64,000 nucleotides of DNA, from positions 825,775 through 889,774 of the forward strand of contig NZ_JUGF01000001.1 of assembly GCF_000799165.1 (NCBI RefSeq), read 5' to 3'. A model generated the notes under the pieces. The model was not told the DNA's origin and searched no databases. It saw only the letters and a list, made by a program, of their open reading frames with translations. Each line of letters starts with the position of its first letter. The stretch's first letter is position 1. Source of the stretch: Methylotenera versatilis 7. GTDB lineage: Bacteria; Pseudomonadota; Gammaproteobacteria; Burkholderiales; Methylophilaceae. The position numbers were made by a program, and so were the translations under genes. This document shows, one piece after another, positions 34,489-63,981 of this stretch.

Positions 34489-35169
34489 TTAACCTCTAAC
34501 TTCTAAGCCATTTCTAACAGATTTAACACCTGCGATTTGAGAAACGACTTGCTCTGCCCTAATTTTAGCGGCTTCGTTATCCACAAAACCACTCAGCATT
34601 ACTTCGCCATCGCGTGTTTCTACGCTAATTTGCAGGCTTTTTAATTCTTTGGTGGCTAATATTTTAGCTTTGGCTTTTGCAGTAATCACACTGTCATCTA
34701 TTACTTCGCCTACTGACCTATTTGAGTTGGCGCCTGATTCTGCTGCTGCCGTGTTCACAGGTTCTTGATTAGTCAGCGTTGATTGACCTTGCGTATCAAG
34801 ACTGTTTTGCGGCAAAACTGCATCCGGGCGTTTACCTGATTTGAAATAGATGTACTCATTCTGGTCAATGTAACCATCATGGTCAGTATCGGCTTGGGCA
34901 AATGTTTTCTTGTTAAATGCCTTACCTTTTGAAGCCTCATGCGGTAAAAGCAAGCCATTACCTGTTGTATCCAGCGCTGCAAACTCGGCAGCTAAAGGTG
35001 CCATCCAGCTTGTGCTGTATGTTTCCGAGGTTGGTGCCGTATTCACGCTAGTAGAATCCATTGTGTCCGTTGCATCTTCTGCAAAGGTAGTCGCCGCAGT
35101 TGTGCTGAAGGCTAAAACAATCACTAAAGCTATTGGTTTGAATGATTTAGTTAAGTTATTTGTTTTCAT
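34489..35169 (-). CDS. Exported EF-hand plus BON-domain protein (paralogue A)
   Basis: The 226-residue precursor has a signal peptide ending near residue 30. Two EF-hand loops follow, DTTGNGLLLPHE and the canonical DTDHDGYIDQNE, and then a BON domain from about residue 155 (DSVITAKAKAKIL... to the end). BON domains bind phospholipid and are found in OsmY-like periplasmic stress proteins; the EF-hands suggest calcium binding. ATG 35169 has AGGAG upstream. It is a paralogue of the gene at 35510 but has a longer linker. A 41-nt element shared with that paralogue lies about 110-150 nt upstream. Confidence 0.85.
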   Translation of the reverse strand: MKTNNLTKSFKPIALVIVLAFSTTAATTFAEDATDTMDSTSVNTAPTSETYSTSWMAPLAAEFAALDTTGNGLLLPHEASKGKAFNKKTFAQADTDHDGYIDQNEYIYFKSGKRPDAVLPQNSLDTQGQSTLTNQEPVNTAAAESGANSNRSVGEVIDDSVITAKAKAKILATKELKSLQISVETRDGEVMLSGFVDNEAAKIRAEQVVSQIAGVKSVRNGLEVRG

Positions 35170-35279
35170 TATGTTGCTCCTAAAAGTCATGTAGTCAGTT
35201 AAGTTAGCTACTTTTATTTAAACGTGCATGGTTCTAATCGTGCAGTACCAGTATATTAATTAAGTTGATTACTTAATTC

Positions 35280-35320
35280 AGTCCTACAAAAGCTGATTTC
35301 TCTGTCAGTCACGGACTACA
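35280..35320 (-). repeat. 41-nt conserved element, copy 1 (upstream of BON paralogue A)
   Basis: Read on the plus strand, five blocks AGTCC, ACAAA, CTGATT, TGTCAG and GGACTACA are spaced by 1, 2, 4 and 4 nt. Copy 2 (36152-36192) has the same blocks and the same spacing, 30 fixed bases out of 41. The outer AGTCC and GGACT and the inner CTGA and TCAG are inverted, as expected of a dimer site. It lies 111 nt before the ATG of the gene at 35169. The rest of the 340-nt gap 35170-35509 holds the terminator at 35338 and no gene. Confidence 0.7.
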
Positions 35321-35337
35321 AACTGTGCAATAACGAA

Positions 35338-35369
35338 AAAGCCGCATGCTTTACGAAACATGCGGCTTT
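35338..35369 (-). terminator. Terminator-like hairpin between the two BON genes
   Basis: AAAGCCGCATG (35338-35348) and CATGCGGCTTT (35359-35369) pair perfectly around a 10-nt loop. On the minus strand TTTTT ends the second arm. It lies 140 nt beyond the stop of the upstream BON gene (35510), insulating it from paralogue A. Confidence 0.75.
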
Positions 35370-35509
35370 AAAGGTCAAAATTATAGATTTGGAATAGTAA
35401 GGCTTGCTAATTACGTTCTGTTTTGGAGTGGATTTAACTCAAGAGAATGGCGTTAAATTGCCAAATGTAGTGCTGGCAATACAACAAACCAAATTGACCC
35501 CTTCTAAAT

Positions 35510-36040
35510 TTAACCTTTAACCTCTAGGCTATTTTTAACAGACTTAACACCTTCAATTTTTGAAACAACTGTCTCGGCTTTAATCTTTGATAGTTCATCA
35601 TCCACAAAACCGCTCAAAATCACAACACCATTAAAGGTTTTTACGCTAATTTGCAGGCTTTTCAATTTCTTTTCAGCCAGCAAGTTTGCTTTTGCTTTAG
35701 AAGTAATCACACTATCTGAAGCAACTCTTTTGACTGCCTGTTTTTGAGCGCCTGATTTATAGTTGACAAACTCTTCTTGGTTGAGGACACCGTCTTTGTC
35801 AACATCTGCTTTTGCAAAATGGCCTTTGGTAAAAAATTCATCTTTGCTAAATTCTGTTTGGGTAAGCAACGCATTTGAATCAGTATCTAATTTTTTAAAT
35901 TCTGTTTCCAACGAAAAGCGACCATTTTGAACAGAATCTGCAACAGCGTCTGAATCTAATGCAACAACTTGCATACTAGACAAACCAAAAGCTAAGGCAA
36001 TCGCTAATGTTGCTGATTTTAATGTTGTTAATTTTTTCAT
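35510..36040 (-). CDS. Exported EF-hand plus BON-domain protein (paralogue B)
   Basis: The 176-residue precursor has a signal peptide (MKKLTTLKSATLAIALAFGL..., cleavage near residue 27). Two EF-hand-like loops follow, a degenerate DTDSNALLTQTE and a good DVDKDGVLNQEE, then a BON domain from about residue 108. The BON part is highly similar to paralogue A (KLKSLQISVKTFNGVVILSG against ELKSLQISVETRDGEVMLSG), indicating duplication. It is likely periplasmic and stress-related. Copy 2 of the 41-nt element lies 111 nt before its start. Confidence 0.85.
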   Translation of the reverse strand: MKKLTTLKSATLAIALAFGLSSMQVVALDSDAVADSVQNGRFSLETEFKKLDTDSNALLTQTEFSKDEFFTKGHFAKADVDKDGVLNQEEFVNYKSGAQKQAVKRVASDSVITSKAKANLLAEKKLKSLQISVKTFNGVVILSGFVDDELSKIKAETVVSKIEGVKSVKNSLEVKG

Positions 36041-36151
36041 CTTTCAACTCCCGATAACTGATTTAATAATCACATTTATACAATCGCAAGTCATTAATAT
36101 TTTTGCGAATTGTGTGATGTCGCCATGTTACGCAAGTGAGAAGATGAATAA

Positions 36152-36192
36152 AGTCCAACAAATACTGATTATGTTGTCAGATAGGGACTACA
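36152..36192 (-). repeat. 41-nt conserved element, copy 2 (upstream of BON paralogue B)
   Basis: It has the same five blocks in the same order and spacing as 35280-35320. It lies 111 nt before the ATG at 36040, the identical distance, and between this gene and the 3' end of the histidine kinase. A regulator site is likely, but part of the similarity may be left from the gene duplication. Confidence 0.7.
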
Positions 36193-36252: not shown

Positions 36253-37731
36253 TTAAAGCGATGGCGCCTCAAAATCCATTGGAATTAAAGCGCGGGTCAA
36301 TACACCTTTTCCTGGTTCACTCACTATTTCAAAATGCCCGCCAATCGCCAATACACGATGACGCATGCCAGACAAGCCGTGTGTATGTCCATCTAAAGCT
36401 TTCATATCGAAACCGAAACCGTTATCTTCAATTTCTAATTTGATATATTGCGCATCGACAATCACATCAACAGAAACTTTGCTGGCTTTGGCATATTTAT
36501 TGGCGTTATTCAACGTTTCTTGCACGATACGATACGCCACTAAACTAATGGTTTCATTTAATTGGGTATTTTCATCTGGCAAGTTTAAAGTCAACTCCCA
36601 CTGATTACGCTCTGCTGCATCTTGAATAAGCGATTGTAACGCTGGCCAGAATCCAAAAGTGGTGAGTATGGCTGGATGTAACTCTTGTACGATATGGCGT
36701 TTATATTGAATGCCTTGATCCACATAACTGTTGGTTTTGCGCAACTTAGCCGCTACTTCTGCAGCTATCTCTGGCGTAATATCTTTCATTTTCTTGATGA
36801 CCCAAGCAATATCCATCTTGGTTGCCGTAAAAATAGAACCGAGCTCATCATGCAATTCGCGCGATAGTTTTTGTCGCTCCCGCTCCACATCTGCCTGATA
36901 ATCCAGCGCTAAACTGCGTAATAACTTGGTTTGCAATTGCAGCTTTTCTTCATAAATGGCATTTTCTTTTGATACGCGCTGCTGCAAATGGCTTTTAATG
37001 GCGAGCTCTGCCAGTAATTGCTTAATCACCAGCACCACAATCCATATCAAAATCAAAGCTCCGCCAAAGATTGAAAGTCGCGCGATTAAAATCGTATGCT
37101 GCTGCTCATTTATCTTAGCGTTTAACGCCTTATTTTGATTGTTAATTACGATATCGGTGTATCCCATGAATTTCTGCATTTCCACCAGACTTTCATCCAG
37201 ATTCATCACCTGTCTCGCCTCTTGCGTTTTGCCTGTTCTCGCTAAATTAAGCGTCACTTTCATTTCGGCCGCTTTTGCTTCCAGACTTGCAGAAATAGCT
37301 TTCATCCAATCCCGCTCTTCTACTTGCTCTTTACCGGAAGAGGTGCGAATCACCAATGCTTCGATTTTCGCAATATTATCCCTGGCATCATTCAGTGCAT
37401 GGTTAAATGGTTCGACATGCGTCTCTCTTTTGGTATACAAGTAACCACGCTGCGCACTTTCGGCTTTATATAGATTCGTTTTCAGCTGGTTCAACGTCAC
37501 GATATTGGTTCTGATCTGACCAATCACCTCACCTTGACGATCGATTGCCTGAATCCATTTATCGCTATAAAGCACAGACACCATGGTAATCAGCAAAGCC
37601 ACAGCAAGCATGGCAATCGTACGTCCGCCCAGCAAAGCGATCAGCTTTTCAAACGTGAGCCAGCCTTGATTGAACAAAACCTTTGTTTTCTCTAGTGTTT
37701 TATTGGCGAAGCTTTGTATAGCCGGATTCAA
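36253..37731 (-). CDS. CHASE3-domain sensor histidine kinase (NarX-like)
   Basis: The 492-residue inner-membrane kinase has a first membrane helix (about 35-52), a CHASE3-type four-helix sensor (about 55-205), a second helix (about 217-237) and a coiled coil. A HisKA_3 dimerisation domain with SRELHDELGS near residue 290 and a HATPase with NNANKYAKAS near 415 and DNGFGFD near 440 complete it. HisKA_3 kinases pair with NarL/FixJ regulators; such a regulator is encoded at 39409 on the other strand, 1.7 kb away. The signal is unknown. It is divergent from the DUF1328 gene at 37849. Confidence 0.92.
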   Translation of the reverse strand: MNPAIQSFANKTLEKTKVLFNQGWLTFEKLIALLGGRTIAMLAVALLITMVSVLYSDKWIQAIDRQGEVIGQIRTNIVTLNQLKTNLYKAESAQRGYLYTKRETHVEPFNHALNDARDNIAKIEALVIRTSSGKEQVEERDWMKAISASLEAKAAEMKVTLNLARTGKTQEARQVMNLDESLVEMQKFMGYTDIVINNQNKALNAKINEQQHTILIARLSIFGGALILIWIVVLVIKQLLAELAIKSHLQQRVSKENAIYEEKLQLQTKLLRSLALDYQADVERERQKLSRELHDELGSIFTATKMDIAWVIKKMKDITPEIAAEVAAKLRKTNSYVDQGIQYKRHIVQELHPAILTTFGFWPALQSLIQDAAERNQWELTLNLPDENTQLNETISLVAYRIVQETLNNANKYAKASKVSVDVIVDAQYIKLEIEDNGFGFDMKALDGHTHGLSGMRHRVLAIGGHFEIVSEPGKGVLTRALIPMDFEAPSL

Positions 37732-37848
37732 AATATGTAATCGCTTTCTGACATCAAAATCAGATTATAACTTCTAATCCGTTTAAAAGCGGTTGAGTAT
37801 GATTGCATCGTTAAGTTCCTCTTTTTCATCTCATGCAAAGGACTCATC

Positions 37849-38022
37849 ATGCTTTATTACGCATTTCTCTTTTTTGTTATCGCTATTGTTGCGGGATTGC
37901 TTGGGTTTAAAGATGTAGAGTCTGGTGCGACTAAACTTGCCAAGTTCTTCTTCTTTATTTTTATCATTTTAGCATTACTCGTATTGGGCGCTGTGGTGCT
38001 TGGCCTTAACTTGGCATTTTAA
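37849..38022 (+). CDS. DUF1328-like small membrane protein (first copy)
   Basis: This 57-residue protein (MLYYAFLFFVIAIVAGLLGF, then KDVESGATKLAKFFFF and a second hydrophobic helix) has the two-helix pattern of DUF1328/YtjA proteins, which appear in general stress regulons. AAGGA lies 8 nt before the ATG. A 14-nt direct duplication (AACTTGGCATTTTA) covers the stop codon and the following bases. A similar but distinct copy follows at 38169. Confidence 0.85.
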   Translation: MLYYAFLFFVIAIVAGLLGFKDVESGATKLAKFFFFIFIILALLVLGAVVLGLNLAF

Positions 38023-38080: not shown

Positions 38081-38168
38081 ATAGCCGCTGATAATCAGCA
38101 AGGTGTTCACATAAAGTAGTAACTGTGCATTTGCATTGCTTGACTACAAACTGACAAGGAGGTTCAAG

Positions 38169-38327
38169 ATGCTTCATTACACCGTCGTATTTTTTATCAT
38201 CGCCATTATTGCCGCAGTGTTTGGATTTGGCGGGATTGCGGCAGGTGCAACTGAAATTGCAAAGATATTATTTTTTGTATTTTTAATTGTGACCATTATT
38301 TCATTCATCATCGGTAGAAAACGTTAG
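38169..38327 (+). CDS. DUF1328 (YtjA-like) small membrane protein (second copy)
   Basis: This 53-residue protein has two membrane helices and the canonical DUF1328 text: [35 protein letters not shown] and a basic C terminus GRKR. A very strong AAGGAGG precedes ATG 38169, which decides the start over an upstream in-frame TTG. YtjA-type proteins are linked to envelope or osmotic stress; molecular role unknown. It is closer to the family norm than its neighbour at 37849. Confidence 0.9.
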
Positions 38328-38407: not shown

Positions 38408-38830
38408 ATGTTTAATTCAAACAAGCAAGAAGAGTTAAAAAATAAAGCCGCAAATTTGGCTGAAAATGTGAAAGACAACGTTCAGGATGTTGCAAGTGAT
38501 GTAAGACGTAGTGCCGATAAAATCGGTCAAGACTTGCAAGAAAAAACCCTTGAAACCAAACATGAAGCACTAAGCGTGATTGATAGCTTAAAGTCATTGA
38601 TTAACCAATACACAAGCTCGGCTAATGTGGCGGATATTAAAAATCAGATCTTAGACAAAGCCTATGAATTAAAAGGCACTGTTAAAGATGAGGTGACACA
38701 TGCTTATGAAGCTGGCAAAGAACGTACCGTTCATACTGTGCAAGAAAAACCTTTGTTGAGTTTAGGCTTGGCTATTGGTGCAGGCGTGTTACTGGGTTAT
38801 ATTTTGGGTTCTAAACAATCGTCAAAATAA
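38408..38830 (+). CDS. DUF883 (YqjD/ElaB-like) membrane-anchored protein
   Basis: The 140-residue protein is a long amphipathic, probably coiled-coil helix region (about 1-112) with many Lys/Glu/Asp residues. A C-terminal glycine-rich membrane anchor (LSLGLAIGAGVLLGYILGS) follows. This is the architecture of E. coli YqjD/ElaB, stationary-phase inner-membrane proteins reported to bind ribosomes. The next gene resembles YqjE, as in the E. coli yqjD-yqjE operon. AAAGGAATT precedes the ATG. Confidence 0.9.
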   Translation: MFNSNKQEELKNKAANLAENVKDNVQDVASDVRRSADKIGQDLQEKTLETKHEALSVIDSLKSLINQYTSSANVADIKNQILDKAYELKGTVKDEVTHAYEAGKERTVHTVQEKPLLSLGLAIGAGVLLGYILGSKQSSK

Positions 38831-38853: not shown

Positions 38854-39345
38854 ATGTGGAACACCGCGCTGAAGTTTATTGCACAATTACTCCTTGCCAA
38901 ATTCGTACGTGACCGTATGAAAAGTGTGCAGGAAGATTTTAGTAATGATGCAGAAGGCCATTTCGGCGCACTGAAAAAAAACGTAGCGGCGTTGGTTGAA
39001 AACCACGCTGCTATATTTAAACAACAACTGAATCAAGACATGAAGCGTGCAGCCAATAGTTTATTCGGCCTCGTTTTCATCTTCTTTGCGCTACTGTGTT
39101 CTGTCTTAACGGCATTAATGTGGTTATTTGCAATCGCATGGAACAGCGCTCACCGTGATGTAATTTTAGGAGTAACAATGGCTTTACCGTTATTAATCAG
39201 CGTAGGTATCTTTCTTGCTATTCGCCATACCTGGAAAAAACAGCCGCTTTTTTCAAAATCCATGATACAAATTGAGAGTGATTGGCAAGTATTTAAAGAT
39301 GGATTAGATGGCACGGCAGATACTTCCGATGAAGCTAACCGATAA
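38854..39345 (+). CDS. YqjE-like holin-superfamily membrane protein
   Basis: The 163-residue protein has an N-terminal helical region (about 1-65) and two strong membrane segments (about 70-97 and 103-123), then a charged cytoplasmic tail. Position directly after a DUF883 gene (23 nt gap) and the two-helix pattern match YqjE of the phage-holin-3-6 superfamily. There is no sign of phage genes, so a lysis role is unlikely. An inverted repeat just after the stop (39353-39373) may end the transcript. Confidence 0.75.
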   Translation: MWNTALKFIAQLLLAKFVRDRMKSVQEDFSNDAEGHFGALKKNVAALVENHAAIFKQQLNQDMKRAANSLFGLVFIFFALLCSVLTALMWLFAIAWNSAHRDVILGVTMALPLLISVGIFLAIRHTWKKQPLFSKSMIQIESDWQVFKDGLDGTADTSDEANR

Positions 39346-39408: not shown

Positions 39409-40041
39409 ATGAAAAACGTTTTATTGGTTGATGACCACAGTATTGTGCGCCAAGGTTTAAAAAACCTGATCGCCTTGGAAGCGGATTTAACAGTGACAGG
39501 CGAAGCTGGATCTGGCCTGGAAGCCATTAAAATGGTGCGTGCCAATCAATATGACATTGTTGTATTGGATATTTCAATGCCAGACAAGAATGGCGTCGAT
39601 ACTTTACATGATTTAAAACATGTCGCACCAAGCCTGCCTGTACTGATATTAAGCGGTTACGGCGAGTCGCAGTATGCGCTTAATTTAATTCGTAACGGCT
39701 GCAAAGGTTATCTATCCAAAGATGCTGATTCTGACGAAATTATCAAAGCTATCCGCACCATTGCCAACGGTAAACGTTATATTTCAGCAGAGCTAGCCGA
39801 GCTAATGAGTGAGCAGCTTAGCCATCCATCCGAAAAACAATTGCACGAAACCTTAAGTGACCGTGAGTTCCAGGTATTTTTTAAATTGTCTAGCGGCTTA
39901 AGCGCCACGGAAATAGGCGAGGAACTGAATATTAGCGTTAAAACGGTAAGCACTTATCGATCGCGTATTTTGGAAAAGATGAGCCTTAAAACCAATGCGG
40001 ACTTAACTTATTACGCGATTAAAAATGGATTAATCACATGA
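39409..40041 (+). CDS. NarL/FixJ-type response regulator
   Basis: The 210-residue protein has a receiver domain (about 1-120) with acidic pocket VDDH, phospho-acceptor Asp in VVLDISMPDKNG near residue 54, and conserved Lys in GYLSKDADSDE near 103. A LuxR-type helix-turn-helix follows (about 145-205: LSDREFQVFFKLSSGLSATEIGEELNIS). It is the natural partner of the HisKA_3 kinase at 36253. It may control the genes bearing the 41-nt element; this is inference. Confidence 0.93.
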   Translation: MKNVLLVDDHSIVRQGLKNLIALEADLTVTGEAGSGLEAIKMVRANQYDIVVLDISMPDKNGVDTLHDLKHVAPSLPVLILSGYGESQYALNLIRNGCKGYLSKDADSDEIIKAIRTIANGKRYISAELAELMSEQLSHPSEKQLHETLSDREFQVFFKLSSGLSATEIGEELNISVKTVSTYRSRILEKMSLKTNADLTYYAIKNGLIT

Positions 40042-40152: not shown

Positions 40153-40650
40153 ATGCGTAACGATAAACAACATAAAATGTCAGATTTTAAAGATAACCCT
40201 CCAAACAAAGCGACATTGAGTACAAGCAATTTGCACAAATCGCAAAGTCAATCTGAGCCGATGAAAATGCTATTGGTAGAAGACTCTACTTTGTTGCGTG
40301 AAGTGTTATTTGAAACGATTAACGGCCTTAATAATGTTGCAGTAGATGGTACCGCAGACACGCAGCTTAAAGCGATTGAATTGTTAAATGAAAAACCATT
40401 TGATATTTTGTTGCTGGATATAGAGTTGGCCCAAGGTAATGGTTTTGAGGTGATTCGACATATTCAAAAAGAACCCTCTTCTTTCGGCCAGCCAATTCTC
40501 ATGATGCTGACTAATCATGCCCATCCGCATTATCGTAGCTTGGCCAAAAGTTTAGGCGTGCATTATTTTTTCGATAAATCCATGGACTTTGATTTAGCCA
40601 TTGAAGCGATTGAACTAGAGGCTAATCGATTTTCAAGTGCACAGCATTAA
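40153..40650 (+). CDS. Stand-alone receiver-domain protein
   Basis: The 165-residue protein has a polar, probably disordered N-terminal extension (about 1-36, many Asn, Gln, Ser, Lys) and then one receiver domain (MKMLLVEDSTLLREVLFE from residue 37; Asp in LLLDIELAQGNGFEV near 86; Lys in FFDKSMD). No output domain is present, so it may act as a phosphate sink, by protein contact, or in a phosphorelay with the local kinase. Translation could instead start at the internal ATG at codon 37. Confidence 0.87.
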   Translation: MRNDKQHKMSDFKDNPPNKATLSTSNLHKSQSQSEPMKMLLVEDSTLLREVLFETINGLNNVAVDGTADTQLKAIELLNEKPFDILLLDIELAQGNGFEVIRHIQKEPSSFGQPILMMLTNHAHPHYRSLAKSLGVHYFFDKSMDFDLAIEAIELEANRFSSAQH

Positions 40651-40677
40651 AGGCTGTATGGTTTATGTGAAGTCTTC

Positions 40678-41148
40678 ATGTTAAAAACTGAAACTTGGGA
40701 ACTGATTAGTTATATCGTTACAGCCTTTGGCTTGCCACTGGCTATTTTTTCTTTTATTTGGCAGCAACGCAAAGAACGCGAAAACGAAGAAGAAGCTGTT
40801 TACCAAATGCTGTCAGATGCTTACACTGATTTTTTGAAATTGGTCATGCAAAATCCCGATCTCAAATTACGTTCGCAATCCGAGATTCTTGACCTGACTG
40901 AAGAGCAACGTGAGCGCATTCACGTGATTTTTGAAATCTTGATTTCTTTATTTGAACGCGCTTACTTGCTGGCTTACGAAGACAATATGTCGAATAAGCA
41001 ACGTCGCAGATGGGCGTCTTGGGATGATTACATGCGCGAGTGGTGCGAACGTGATGACTTTAAATTTAAGCTACCGCGTTTGTTGCAAGGTGAAGATGCG
41101 GATTTTGCAGCCTATATTCAAAAAATCGCAAACGAAGAACATATGTAA
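40678..41148 (+). CDS. Membrane-anchored protein of unknown function
   Basis: The 156-residue protein begins with MLKTETWELISYIVTAFGLP, a single membrane helix to about residue 28. A basic-acidic stop-transfer (QQRKERENEEE) and a soluble helical domain with Trp/Arg-rich WASWDDYMREWCERDDF near residue 121 follow. I do not recognise a named family. It lies 28 nt after the receiver gene and inside the stress island, so it may be part of the same output. Confidence 0.75.
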   Translation: MLKTETWELISYIVTAFGLPLAIFSFIWQQRKERENEEEAVYQMLSDAYTDFLKLVMQNPDLKLRSQSEILDLTEEQRERIHVIFEILISLFERAYLLAYEDNMSNKQRRRWASWDDYMREWCERDDFKFKLPRLLQGEDADFAAYIQKIANEEHM

Positions 41149-62481: not shown

Positions 62482-63981
62482 ATGACGCAAACCCTTGCAG
62501 CTAGTAACGATATTGACCCATGTACGCTTGTGCTGTTTGGCGCAAGCGGCAATTTAGCACGTGTAAAACTTTACCCTGGATTGTTTAGACTGGATTCTAT
62601 TGGCCGCTTACCTGCGGACTTAAAAATCCTGGCCGTTGGTCGTCAAGAAGTGACTTTGGAAGCATGGCGTGCTGATATTAAAAGCATGTTGGATGCTAAA
62701 TTCAAAAAGGGCTATGACGCAGCAGCATTTGAACGTTTCATTGCGCGTAACTATTATCATGCTAATCCACCAACTGACCCAGATGCATTTATCAAGCTTA
62801 AAAACACTTTAAGCAATGATGCAATTTTCCCGCAAAACTTAGCTTACTTTTTATCCGTACGCCCTGTAGATTTCGCACCGGTTGTGGAATCATTGGCAAA
62901 AGTTGGACTGACGCAGGAAGACAAATTCTGGCGCCGTGTGGTGTTGAAAAGCCATTTGGTACCGATTTAGCATCAGCGAAAGAGCTGCAATCTGGCCTGA
63001 CTAAAAACCTAAAAGAAAGCCAAATTTACCGTATTGACCATTATTTGGGTAAATCTGCGCTACAAAATATTCTGTTACAACGCTTTACTAACACGATATT
63101 GGAACCAATTTGGAACAATCAATATATTGATCATGTGCAAATCACCAATACTGAAATGTTGGGCGTGGGCGACCGCACACAGTTTTATGATAGTACCGGT
63201 GCATTGCGCGATATGATTCAAAGTCATATTCTGCAAACCTTGGCCTTAACCGCCATGGAGTTGCCAAAAGATTTAACGCCAGACGGCGTGCGCGATGCCA
63301 AGATTAAAGTGTTAGAACAAATTCGTCCAATTCCAGTAGACGAATTAAACAAACACGCTTTCCGTGCGCAATATGCAGCGGGCAAAGTCAATGGCGAAAA
63401 AGTACCGGGCTACTTAGAGGAATTGGGTAACAAAGATAGCGTGGTAGAAACCTATGCTGCGCTTAAATTGTGTTATTGATAACCCACGCTGGAAAGGTGT
63501 GCCATTTTATATCCGCACCGCAAAACGCTTGCATGAAGCCGATACACGCATTTCTATCCGCTTTAAAAAAGCGCCGTTGCAAGTGAACGAGCAAGATCAA
63601 AACTGGCTAATTATCGGTATTCAGCCGCGTGAATGTATCAAAATGGAAATTCAAGCCAAAGTACCAGGTTTGGATATCAACACGCGAACCATTCAATTAG
63701 ATGCGGCAAACCGTTTAGCAGAAGATGATACCGTTGATGCTTACGAAGCTTTGTTGCTTAACTTAATGCAAGGCGATAACTCAAATTACCTGCATATTAG
63801 TGAAGCCGAAGCGCAATGGCGTCTGGTTGATCCAGTGGTTAAGGCTTGGGCAGCGGATAAAACGCCTGTGCACCAATACCCTGCTGGCTCTAGTGACCCA
63901 GAAGCCTCAAAAGTTATTTTTGAAGCCGAAGACCAATTTTGGCGTTATAGCATTGAATTGGGCGGCGACAAACCCAACTAA
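62482..63981 (+). pseudogene. zwf: Glucose-6-phosphate dehydrogenase, disrupted by two frameshifts
   Basis: Zwf oxidises glucose 6-phosphate at the entry to the oxidative branch. Translated in three pieces, the reading gives a full-length enzyme. Frame 1 runs from MTQTLAASND with LFGASGNLA near residue 19 up to WRRVVL. One G is missing near 62946, since GAA AAG CCA TTT GGT (EKPFG) is expected. The middle piece (to about 63468) holds RIDHYLGKSALQNIL with the substrate site. One extra base in TTGTGTTATTGAT then restores frame 1 (IDNPRWKGVPFYIRTAKRL to the C terminus). As written the protein ends after 162 residues. No amino-acid decay is seen, so a sequence error or a very recent lesion is likely. 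Confidence 0.9.

Follow-up and report, generated by a model that had tools for sequence, protein, structure and literature searches.

Organization of the locus

The window, a 64,000-nt stretch of the Methylotenera versatilis 7 genome, carries two BON/EF-hand genes on the minus strand, each preceded by a copy of a 41-nt element. The features of this region, with operators and promoter boxes as predicted, are as follows.

35280-35320 and 36152-36192, minus strand: the two copies of the 41-nt element, located by pattern search
34489..35169, minus strand: BON/EF-hand protein 1, 226 aa, ATG at 35169
35253..35258, minus strand: predicted -10 box TAATAT for BON gene 1, 34 nt downstream of AATCAG
35279..35284, minus strand: second-site block GGACTG of BON gene 1 (CGACTG in many relatives)
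35293..35320, minus strand: predicted core operator of BON gene 1, TGTAGTC-N5-CTGACA-N4-AATCAG
35510..36040, minus strand: BON/EF-hand protein 2, 176 aa, ATG at 36040
36125..36130, minus strand: predicted -10 box TAACAT for BON gene 2, 34 nt downstream of AATCAG
36151..36156, minus strand: second-site block GGACTT of BON gene 2
36165..36192, minus strand: predicted core operator of BON gene 2

The two BON/EF-hand proteins are paralogues with the same domains. Their EF-hand parts give weak matches to the lanmodulin model (26.4 and 27.8 bits; cut-off 135), and such lanmodulin-like EF-hands (34489-36040) are a reason to look at metal binding in this likely methylotroph. Elsewhere in the window, at 62482-63981, a glucose-6-phosphate-dehydrogenase-like region (named by eye) is spread over three separate or overlapping reading frames, and is a broken gene or a sequence error.

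The first-pass annotation had placed both copies of the element exactly. Its count of 30 shared bases out of 41 holds for the block bases, while the total is 31 of 41, one chance match falling in a gap. No further match to the 41-mer was found in the 2.5-Mb genome with up to three mismatches. As the BON genes are on the minus strand, the element is read in coding orientation, and in both copies it is TGTAGTCC-N4-CTGACA-N4-AATCAG-N2-TTTGT-N-GGACT. The part of it that is conserved, referred to below as the core, is TGTAGTC-N5-CTGACA-N4-AATCAG. It is followed by a weaker GGACT/CGACTG block and then, 34 nt past AATCAG, by a -10-like box of the form TANNAT. We infer that the GGACTG block is the right half of a promoter-proximal second site. 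A strong terminator-like hairpin of 14 pairs (35338-35369) immediately precedes the BON1 operator on that gene's strand, and BON1 is therefore likely to depend on its own promoter.

Further copies in the genome

Four copies of the core are present in the genome at up to two mismatches, all of them within 2.8 kb around the kinase gene described below. The third and the fourth precede two DUF1328 genes.

37736..37763, plus strand: third core copy, TGTAATC-N5-CTGACA-N4-AATCAG, before DUF1328 gene a
37798..37803, plus strand: predicted -10 box TATGAT, 34 nt downstream of the third copy
37849..38022, plus strand: DUF1328 gene a, 57 aa
38050..38077, plus strand: fourth core copy, TGTAGGC-N5-CTGACA-N4-TATCAG, before DUF1328 gene b
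38112..38117, plus strand: weak -10-like box TAAAGT, 34 nt downstream of the fourth copy
38169..38327, plus strand: DUF1328 gene b, 52 aa

A wider pattern gave 15 matches in the same genome, compared with three for the reversed-pattern control. These include the four window copies and a fifth strong site on another contig, far from the window.

C1:423269-423296, minus strand: fifth site (L225), TGTCAG-N6-CTGACA-N4-ATTCAG, with TAATAT at 34 nt

The fifth site precedes a 68-aa lipoprotein gene that is entericidin-like, below the Pfam cut-off. A weaker candidate, with a score of 17.7, lies before a gene for a 100-aa protein (L233). The nine remaining matches score 14.8 or less, and for the highest of them (L232) no reading frame of at least 35 aa was found starting within 400 nt.

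Most sites stand at one fixed distance from a -10-like box

We collected the sites upstream of BON and DUF1328 genes in a sample of Methylophilaceae and collapsed them to 55 unique sequences, to which genome G000 contributes four, G022 four, G038 three, and 33 further genomes one or two each. When the core was the only criterion for choosing sites, 41 of the 55 had TANNAT exactly 34 nt downstream of it; no other spacing between 5 and 74 nt had the box in more than two. Per gene class, the box is at 34 nt in 8/8 BON1, 25/28 BON2, and 8/19 DUF1328 sites. The DUF1328 sites thus hold the strict -10 less well, as does the fourth copy in the window with its TAAAGT; two outlying sites (L175 and L176) have CACAAT in the -10 place.

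The distance from the core to the start codon of the matched gene varies from 98 to 220 nt over the same 55 sites, which come from the relatives and from the genome itself. Since the 34-nt spacing is kept in most of these sites, the fixed distance is that to the -10-like box, not that to the start codon. The start-codon distance of 111 nt noticed earlier is true for both BON genes of the window and is no rule beyond them; their equal distance is a coincidence. A simple promoter scan, at its threshold, detected no -35 partner for any of the four -10 boxes of the window. A fixed distance from operator to -10 box without a -35 box is expected of activator-dependent (class II) sigma-70 promoters, and such an arrangement is found here.

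The core is conserved beyond its flanks

Could the two BON upstream regions be alike merely because the genes are paralogues? Paralogy gives this reading its starting point, and in an ungapped comparison the flanks of the two copies do agree at 31 of 80 positions on the 5' side and 52 of 120 on the 3' side. In local alignment, the 3' flanks are no better than shuffled sequences (471 of 500 shuffles reach their score), whereas the score of the element is reached by none of 500; the upstream regions as wholes thus do not align equally well.

We then compared pairwise identities in four hand-picked sets of five, six, four, and six sites. In BON2 orthologues from five genomes of one genus, the core blocks are 97% identical, in contrast to 57% for the gaps inside the core, 31% for the 5' flank, and 39% for the 3' flank. 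Six chosen BON2 sites from four genera have 87% identity in the core, 28-31% in the flanks, and 100% in the fixed bases of TANNAT. Four BON1 sites have 100% in the core, 29% and 49% in the 5' and 3' flanks, and 100% in TANNAT. Six DUF1328 sites have 76% in the core (across genera), 33% and 28% in the flanks, and 82% in TANNAT. Over the three BON sets, then, a core identity of 87-100% is opposed to 28-31% on the 5' side and 31-49% on the 3' side. The element moreover precedes DUF1328 and lipoprotein genes, which are unrelated to the BON genes. Residual duplication is refuted by the difference between core and flanks together with the cross-genus prediction described below, and we give it next to no credence. 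The earlier argument for function over plain duplication is supported by conservation across genera, by the fixed 34 nt, and by the sites before non-paralogous DUF1328 genes.

Not every part of the 41-nt element takes part in this conservation. The GGACT/CGACTG zone is 61-78% identical over the compared sets, a weakly conserved second site of variable symmetry. The TTTGT zone, annotated at first as a fixed ACAAA block, is 66% identical within the genus and only 37% across genera. The ACAAA block and the exact 111-nt rule, neither of which is conserved, were dropped as features of the element.

Recurrence of the core in the family

The full 41-nt pattern occurs in 2 of 150 family genomes, the source genome included, and is too strict for relatives. 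The 27-nt core at up to two mismatches was found in 38 of the 150, with 59 sites as opposed to 8 in the reversed-pattern control. The search of related genomes that had been proposed recovers the core before the same kinds of genes in several genera. A scan of named genomes with the exact pattern returned 19 stretches, 16 of which belong to Methylophilus, Methylotenera, Methylophilaceae, or Methylophilales. Two of the other three are labelled Proteobacteria or Betaproteobacteria, and one is labelled Cytophagales; the Cytophagales match is compatible with chance, as about one chance match is expected.

For cross-prediction, we built a matrix from 15 sites of five window-genus genomes only and scanned 656 kb from other genera. 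This matrix avoids the circularity of a second, family-wide one, which was trained partly on the regions scanned. The threshold was the best score in shuffled sequence, 7.2 over 1.13 million positions on both strands. The final prediction left out the window genus, L054, and L170-L178, and included L055-L059, with duplicate places removed. It gave 59 distinct places above the shuffle best, spread over eight genera besides that of the window; in 53 cases a BON, DUF1328, or DUF883 gene follows 60-330 nt downstream. Among the remaining six are places ahead of the small BON gene of L048 and, in two genomes, ahead of the first small gene that precedes BON. Stretches L055-L059 have no match above the shuffle best.

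The outlying sites precede two kinds of small BON genes (L175/L176 and L047-L049), one of each being confirmed by Pfam, and in one case (L153) a gene for a glycine-zipper protein, where TANNAT is missing. In three genomes of genus g20 (L172-L174), the operator starts 106 nt before the gene of a conserved small protein beginning MQRTKSYMLPK, for which the one copy scanned has no Pfam match.

The candidate regulator and its gene cluster

The genes around the four copies encode a putative two-component pair and two further proteins.

36253..37731, minus strand: CHASE3-HisKA_3 histidine kinase, putative partner of the regulator
38408..38830, plus strand: DUF883-type protein, Pfam DUF883_C below cut-off
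38854..39345, plus strand: Holin-X (PF07332) membrane protein
39409..40041, plus strand: UvrY/GacA-like response regulator, REC + LuxR-HTH, putative binder of the element

Two genes come after the regulator in the window (40153-41148), one for a stand-alone receiver protein and one for a 156-aa protein that has no Pfam match. In most of the fetched stretches that contain the regulator, a stand-alone receiver gene adjoins it, and the kept order is BON - kinase, divergent (DUF1328) - DUF883 - (Holin-X) - regulator - REC protein; many of the genus g20 stretches showed no DUF1328 gene. In the window, DUF883, Holin-X, and the regulator at 39409 come after the DUF1328 gene of the fourth copy. As no terminator-like site was found on the plus strand between 38051 and 39409, the regulator probably belongs to its own regulon.

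The regulator matches Response_reg and GerE above cut-off and thus qualifies as a NarL/FixJ protein. Its best NCBIfam family of 104 is UvrY/SirA/GacA (NF007018), at 173.6 bits, below the curated cut-off of 280. Its recognition helix, KTVSTYR, is nearly invariant. BarA/GacS-type kinases are hybrids with receiver and HPt domains, unlike the kinase here, which matches only CHASE3, HisKA_3, and HATPase_c and lacks both.

The regulator orthologue, defined as a match with E up to 1.8e-100 (the next match is at 2.2e-63), is present in 44 of the 150 genomes. The core at up to two mismatches is found in 32 of these 44 and in 6 of the 106 others, and among BON-bearing genomes in 32 of 44 with the regulator and 3 of 31 without it; the association P of 7e-17 overstates the evidence, as the genomes are related and the counts not independent. 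Two of the 32 (G030 and G129) have their core matches outside the regulator cluster, which may be chance. With the family matrix, a site is present in the fetched stretch of 41 of the 44 regulator genomes. The exceptions are G011, G102, whose promoter region is off the contig, and G147, whose contig ends within the kinase gene. The five BON loci fetched from among the 31 BON-bearing genomes that lack the orthologue have no matrix site. The core thus tracks the orthologue of the NarL-type regulator at 39409, which the first-pass annotation had named for footprinting at a site suited to a dimeric regulator and which remains the candidate binder.

Relation to known boxes

The first half of the core is an 18-nt TGT-N12-ACA dyad, with TGT in 51 and ACA in 53 of the 55 sites. 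The left half-sites are TGTAGT, TGTAGG, TGTAAT, TGTAAG, and TGTCAG, and the right half-sites, read inverted, are TGTCAG, TGTAAG, and TGTAGG. The commonest pairing is TGTAGT with CTGACA (25 of 55). Symmetric pairs (TGTCAG/CTGACA, TGTAAG/CTTACA, and the near-symmetric CGTAGG/CCTACA) are a small minority of the 55, and the exact palindrome TGTCAG-N6-CTGACA is found at the lipoprotein site of the genome itself. The inverted halves first described need correcting: the clearer dyad is this 18-nt one, accompanied by the weaker second site.

In passages of PMC4682653 and PMC8523701, the UvrY site is given as the 18-nt palindrome TGTAAG-N6-CTTACA; passages of PMC4682653 also place it at -183/-182 of E. 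coli csrB and mention an extra partial site near it at csrB and csrC. The element resembles this box in its 18-nt TGT-N12-ACA dyad with an accessory site, and the regulator is nearest to UvrY/SirA/GacA by NCBIfam. The earlier statement that no named motif is like this therefore goes too far: the UvrY/GacA box is a known type, and the first half of the element conforms to it. Differences are that the dyad here would lie about 65 nt before the predicted start, a second block would follow at about -41, and the -10 box comes at a set distance of 34 nt; that the examined sites precede protein genes, not Csr/Rsm RNAs; and that the regulator falls below the UvrY cut-off and its kinase has neither receiver nor HPt domain. 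By its sequence, the element may be described as a variant of the UvrY/GacA-type box in what looks like an activator-dependent promoter.

The NarL/FixJ regulators NarL and BvgA bind as several dimers in a row, and the BvgA pattern consists of a strong upstream dyad and a weaker promoter-proximal site. By analogy, the arrangement here would be similar, with a REC + LuxR-type HTH regulator and the same order of strong and weak sites. The half-sites and the spacing differ, the putative centres here being about 24 nt apart.

Proposed mechanism and alternatives

We consider it likely that the element is the operator of the 39409 regulator, predicted to activate the two BON/EF-hand genes, the two DUF1328 genes, and probably its own operon. 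In this proposal, the CHASE3-HisKA_3 kinase, encoded beside the BON genes, would phosphorylate the regulator. One regulator dimer would bind TGTAGT-N6-CTGACA, centred near -65 if transcription starts about 7 nt after TANNAT, and a second, more weakly bound dimer would occupy AATCAG...GACTG near -41, in the usual place of a -35 box. With the dyad near -65, the second block near -41, and no -35 partner, two dimers side by side may be expected to recruit sigma-70 RNA polymerase. Activation rather than repression is what the position of the element by itself suggests.

The binder may instead be another GacA-like regulator of the family, a paralogue about 45-50% identical to the one at 39409. Many genomes of the family have such a paralogue, which could recognize sites of this kind: its recognition helix is similar (KTVSMYR), the two paralogues scanned score slightly higher on UvrY/SirA/GacA (189.9 and 181.6 versus 173.6 bits), and UvrY-type boxes resemble the first half of the element. 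The paralogue is, however, present in many genomes without the element, and the element tracks, and is mostly linked to, the 39409 orthologue. We therefore regard this assignment as unlikely, if deserving of some weight.

It is quite unlikely that the same regulator silences these genes until its state changes. NarL-type regulators can act as repressors, and the sequence gives no sign of the direction of action. A repressor would nevertheless not need the fixed 34 nt, and this spacing, the block over the -35 position, and the missing -35 partner make up an activator-dependent layout.

Recognition of the element by an alternative sigma factor would account for the fixed distance to the -10-like box and for a small, stress-type gene set. 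Yet the core, which would reach from about -73 to -47, is too distant from the start to serve as a -35 box, the -10 resembles that of ordinary sigma-70 promoters, the half-sites of the box 1 dyad vary, and RpoS is over cut-off in none of the 150 family genomes, which together leave this reading very improbable. An RNA hairpin or attenuator was set aside, as the core precedes the predicted -10 box and would not be transcribed from that promoter.

Reach beyond the family and relation to RpoS

The regulator predicted to bind the element has relatives of 61-72% identity in other families among 399 genomes of the order. We inspected 15 stretches around relatives of 55-72% identity, and 11 have at least one family-matrix match above 5, the best of 382,606 positions in the shuffle control being -1.0. 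Several of the matches precede DUF1328 or regulator genes, some lie elsewhere, and four stretches have none. Such matches near regulator relatives in other families indicate that the operator is probably older than the family.

With TIGR02394, RpoS was over cut-off in none of the 150 family genomes and in 1 of 14 control genomes. Weaker matches to this model occur in 147 family genomes, and their open-frame lengths suit RpoD and RpoH. YqjD and ElaB are DUF883 proteins, YqjE belongs to PF07332, and osmY and entericidin B are RpoS-dependent. In Salmonella, the DUF1328 gene ytjA is under tight sigma-S control, according to a passage of PMC5437024; for E. coli, passages of PMC10746276 describe yqjD as dependent on sigma-S and yqjE as upregulated by RpoS; and ElaB is called RpoS-regulated in the title of PMC6389858. 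The targets predicted here are thus of the same kinds as in the enteric RpoS stress regulon, but they carry a predicted two-component operator and a sigma-70-type -10 box in genomes with no RpoS over cut-off. The enteric control of ytjA, yqjD/yqjE, and elaB suggests, by analogy, that the system here runs an RpoS-like set. A search covering mainly openly available papers listed no published account of this gene set or of such a regulator.

As a tentative and possible wider reading, a GacA-like system acting directly on stress protein genes and not through Csr RNAs would replace RpoS as the switch for the OsmY/YtjA/YqjD-type envelope set in a family without RpoS, with the double operator and its 34-nt link to the -10 box ancestral to several families of the order. 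The control of BON/EF-hand, DUF1328, and DUF883 genes is little studied outside enteric bacteria, and what is gained here is a base-exact layout of operator and promoter, a candidate regulator, and a short target list. If true, the proposal would make this a UvrY/GacA-type box acting at the promoter itself, on protein genes, and it proposes a testable explanation of how an RpoS-like envelope-stress set may be run in bacteria that have no RpoS.
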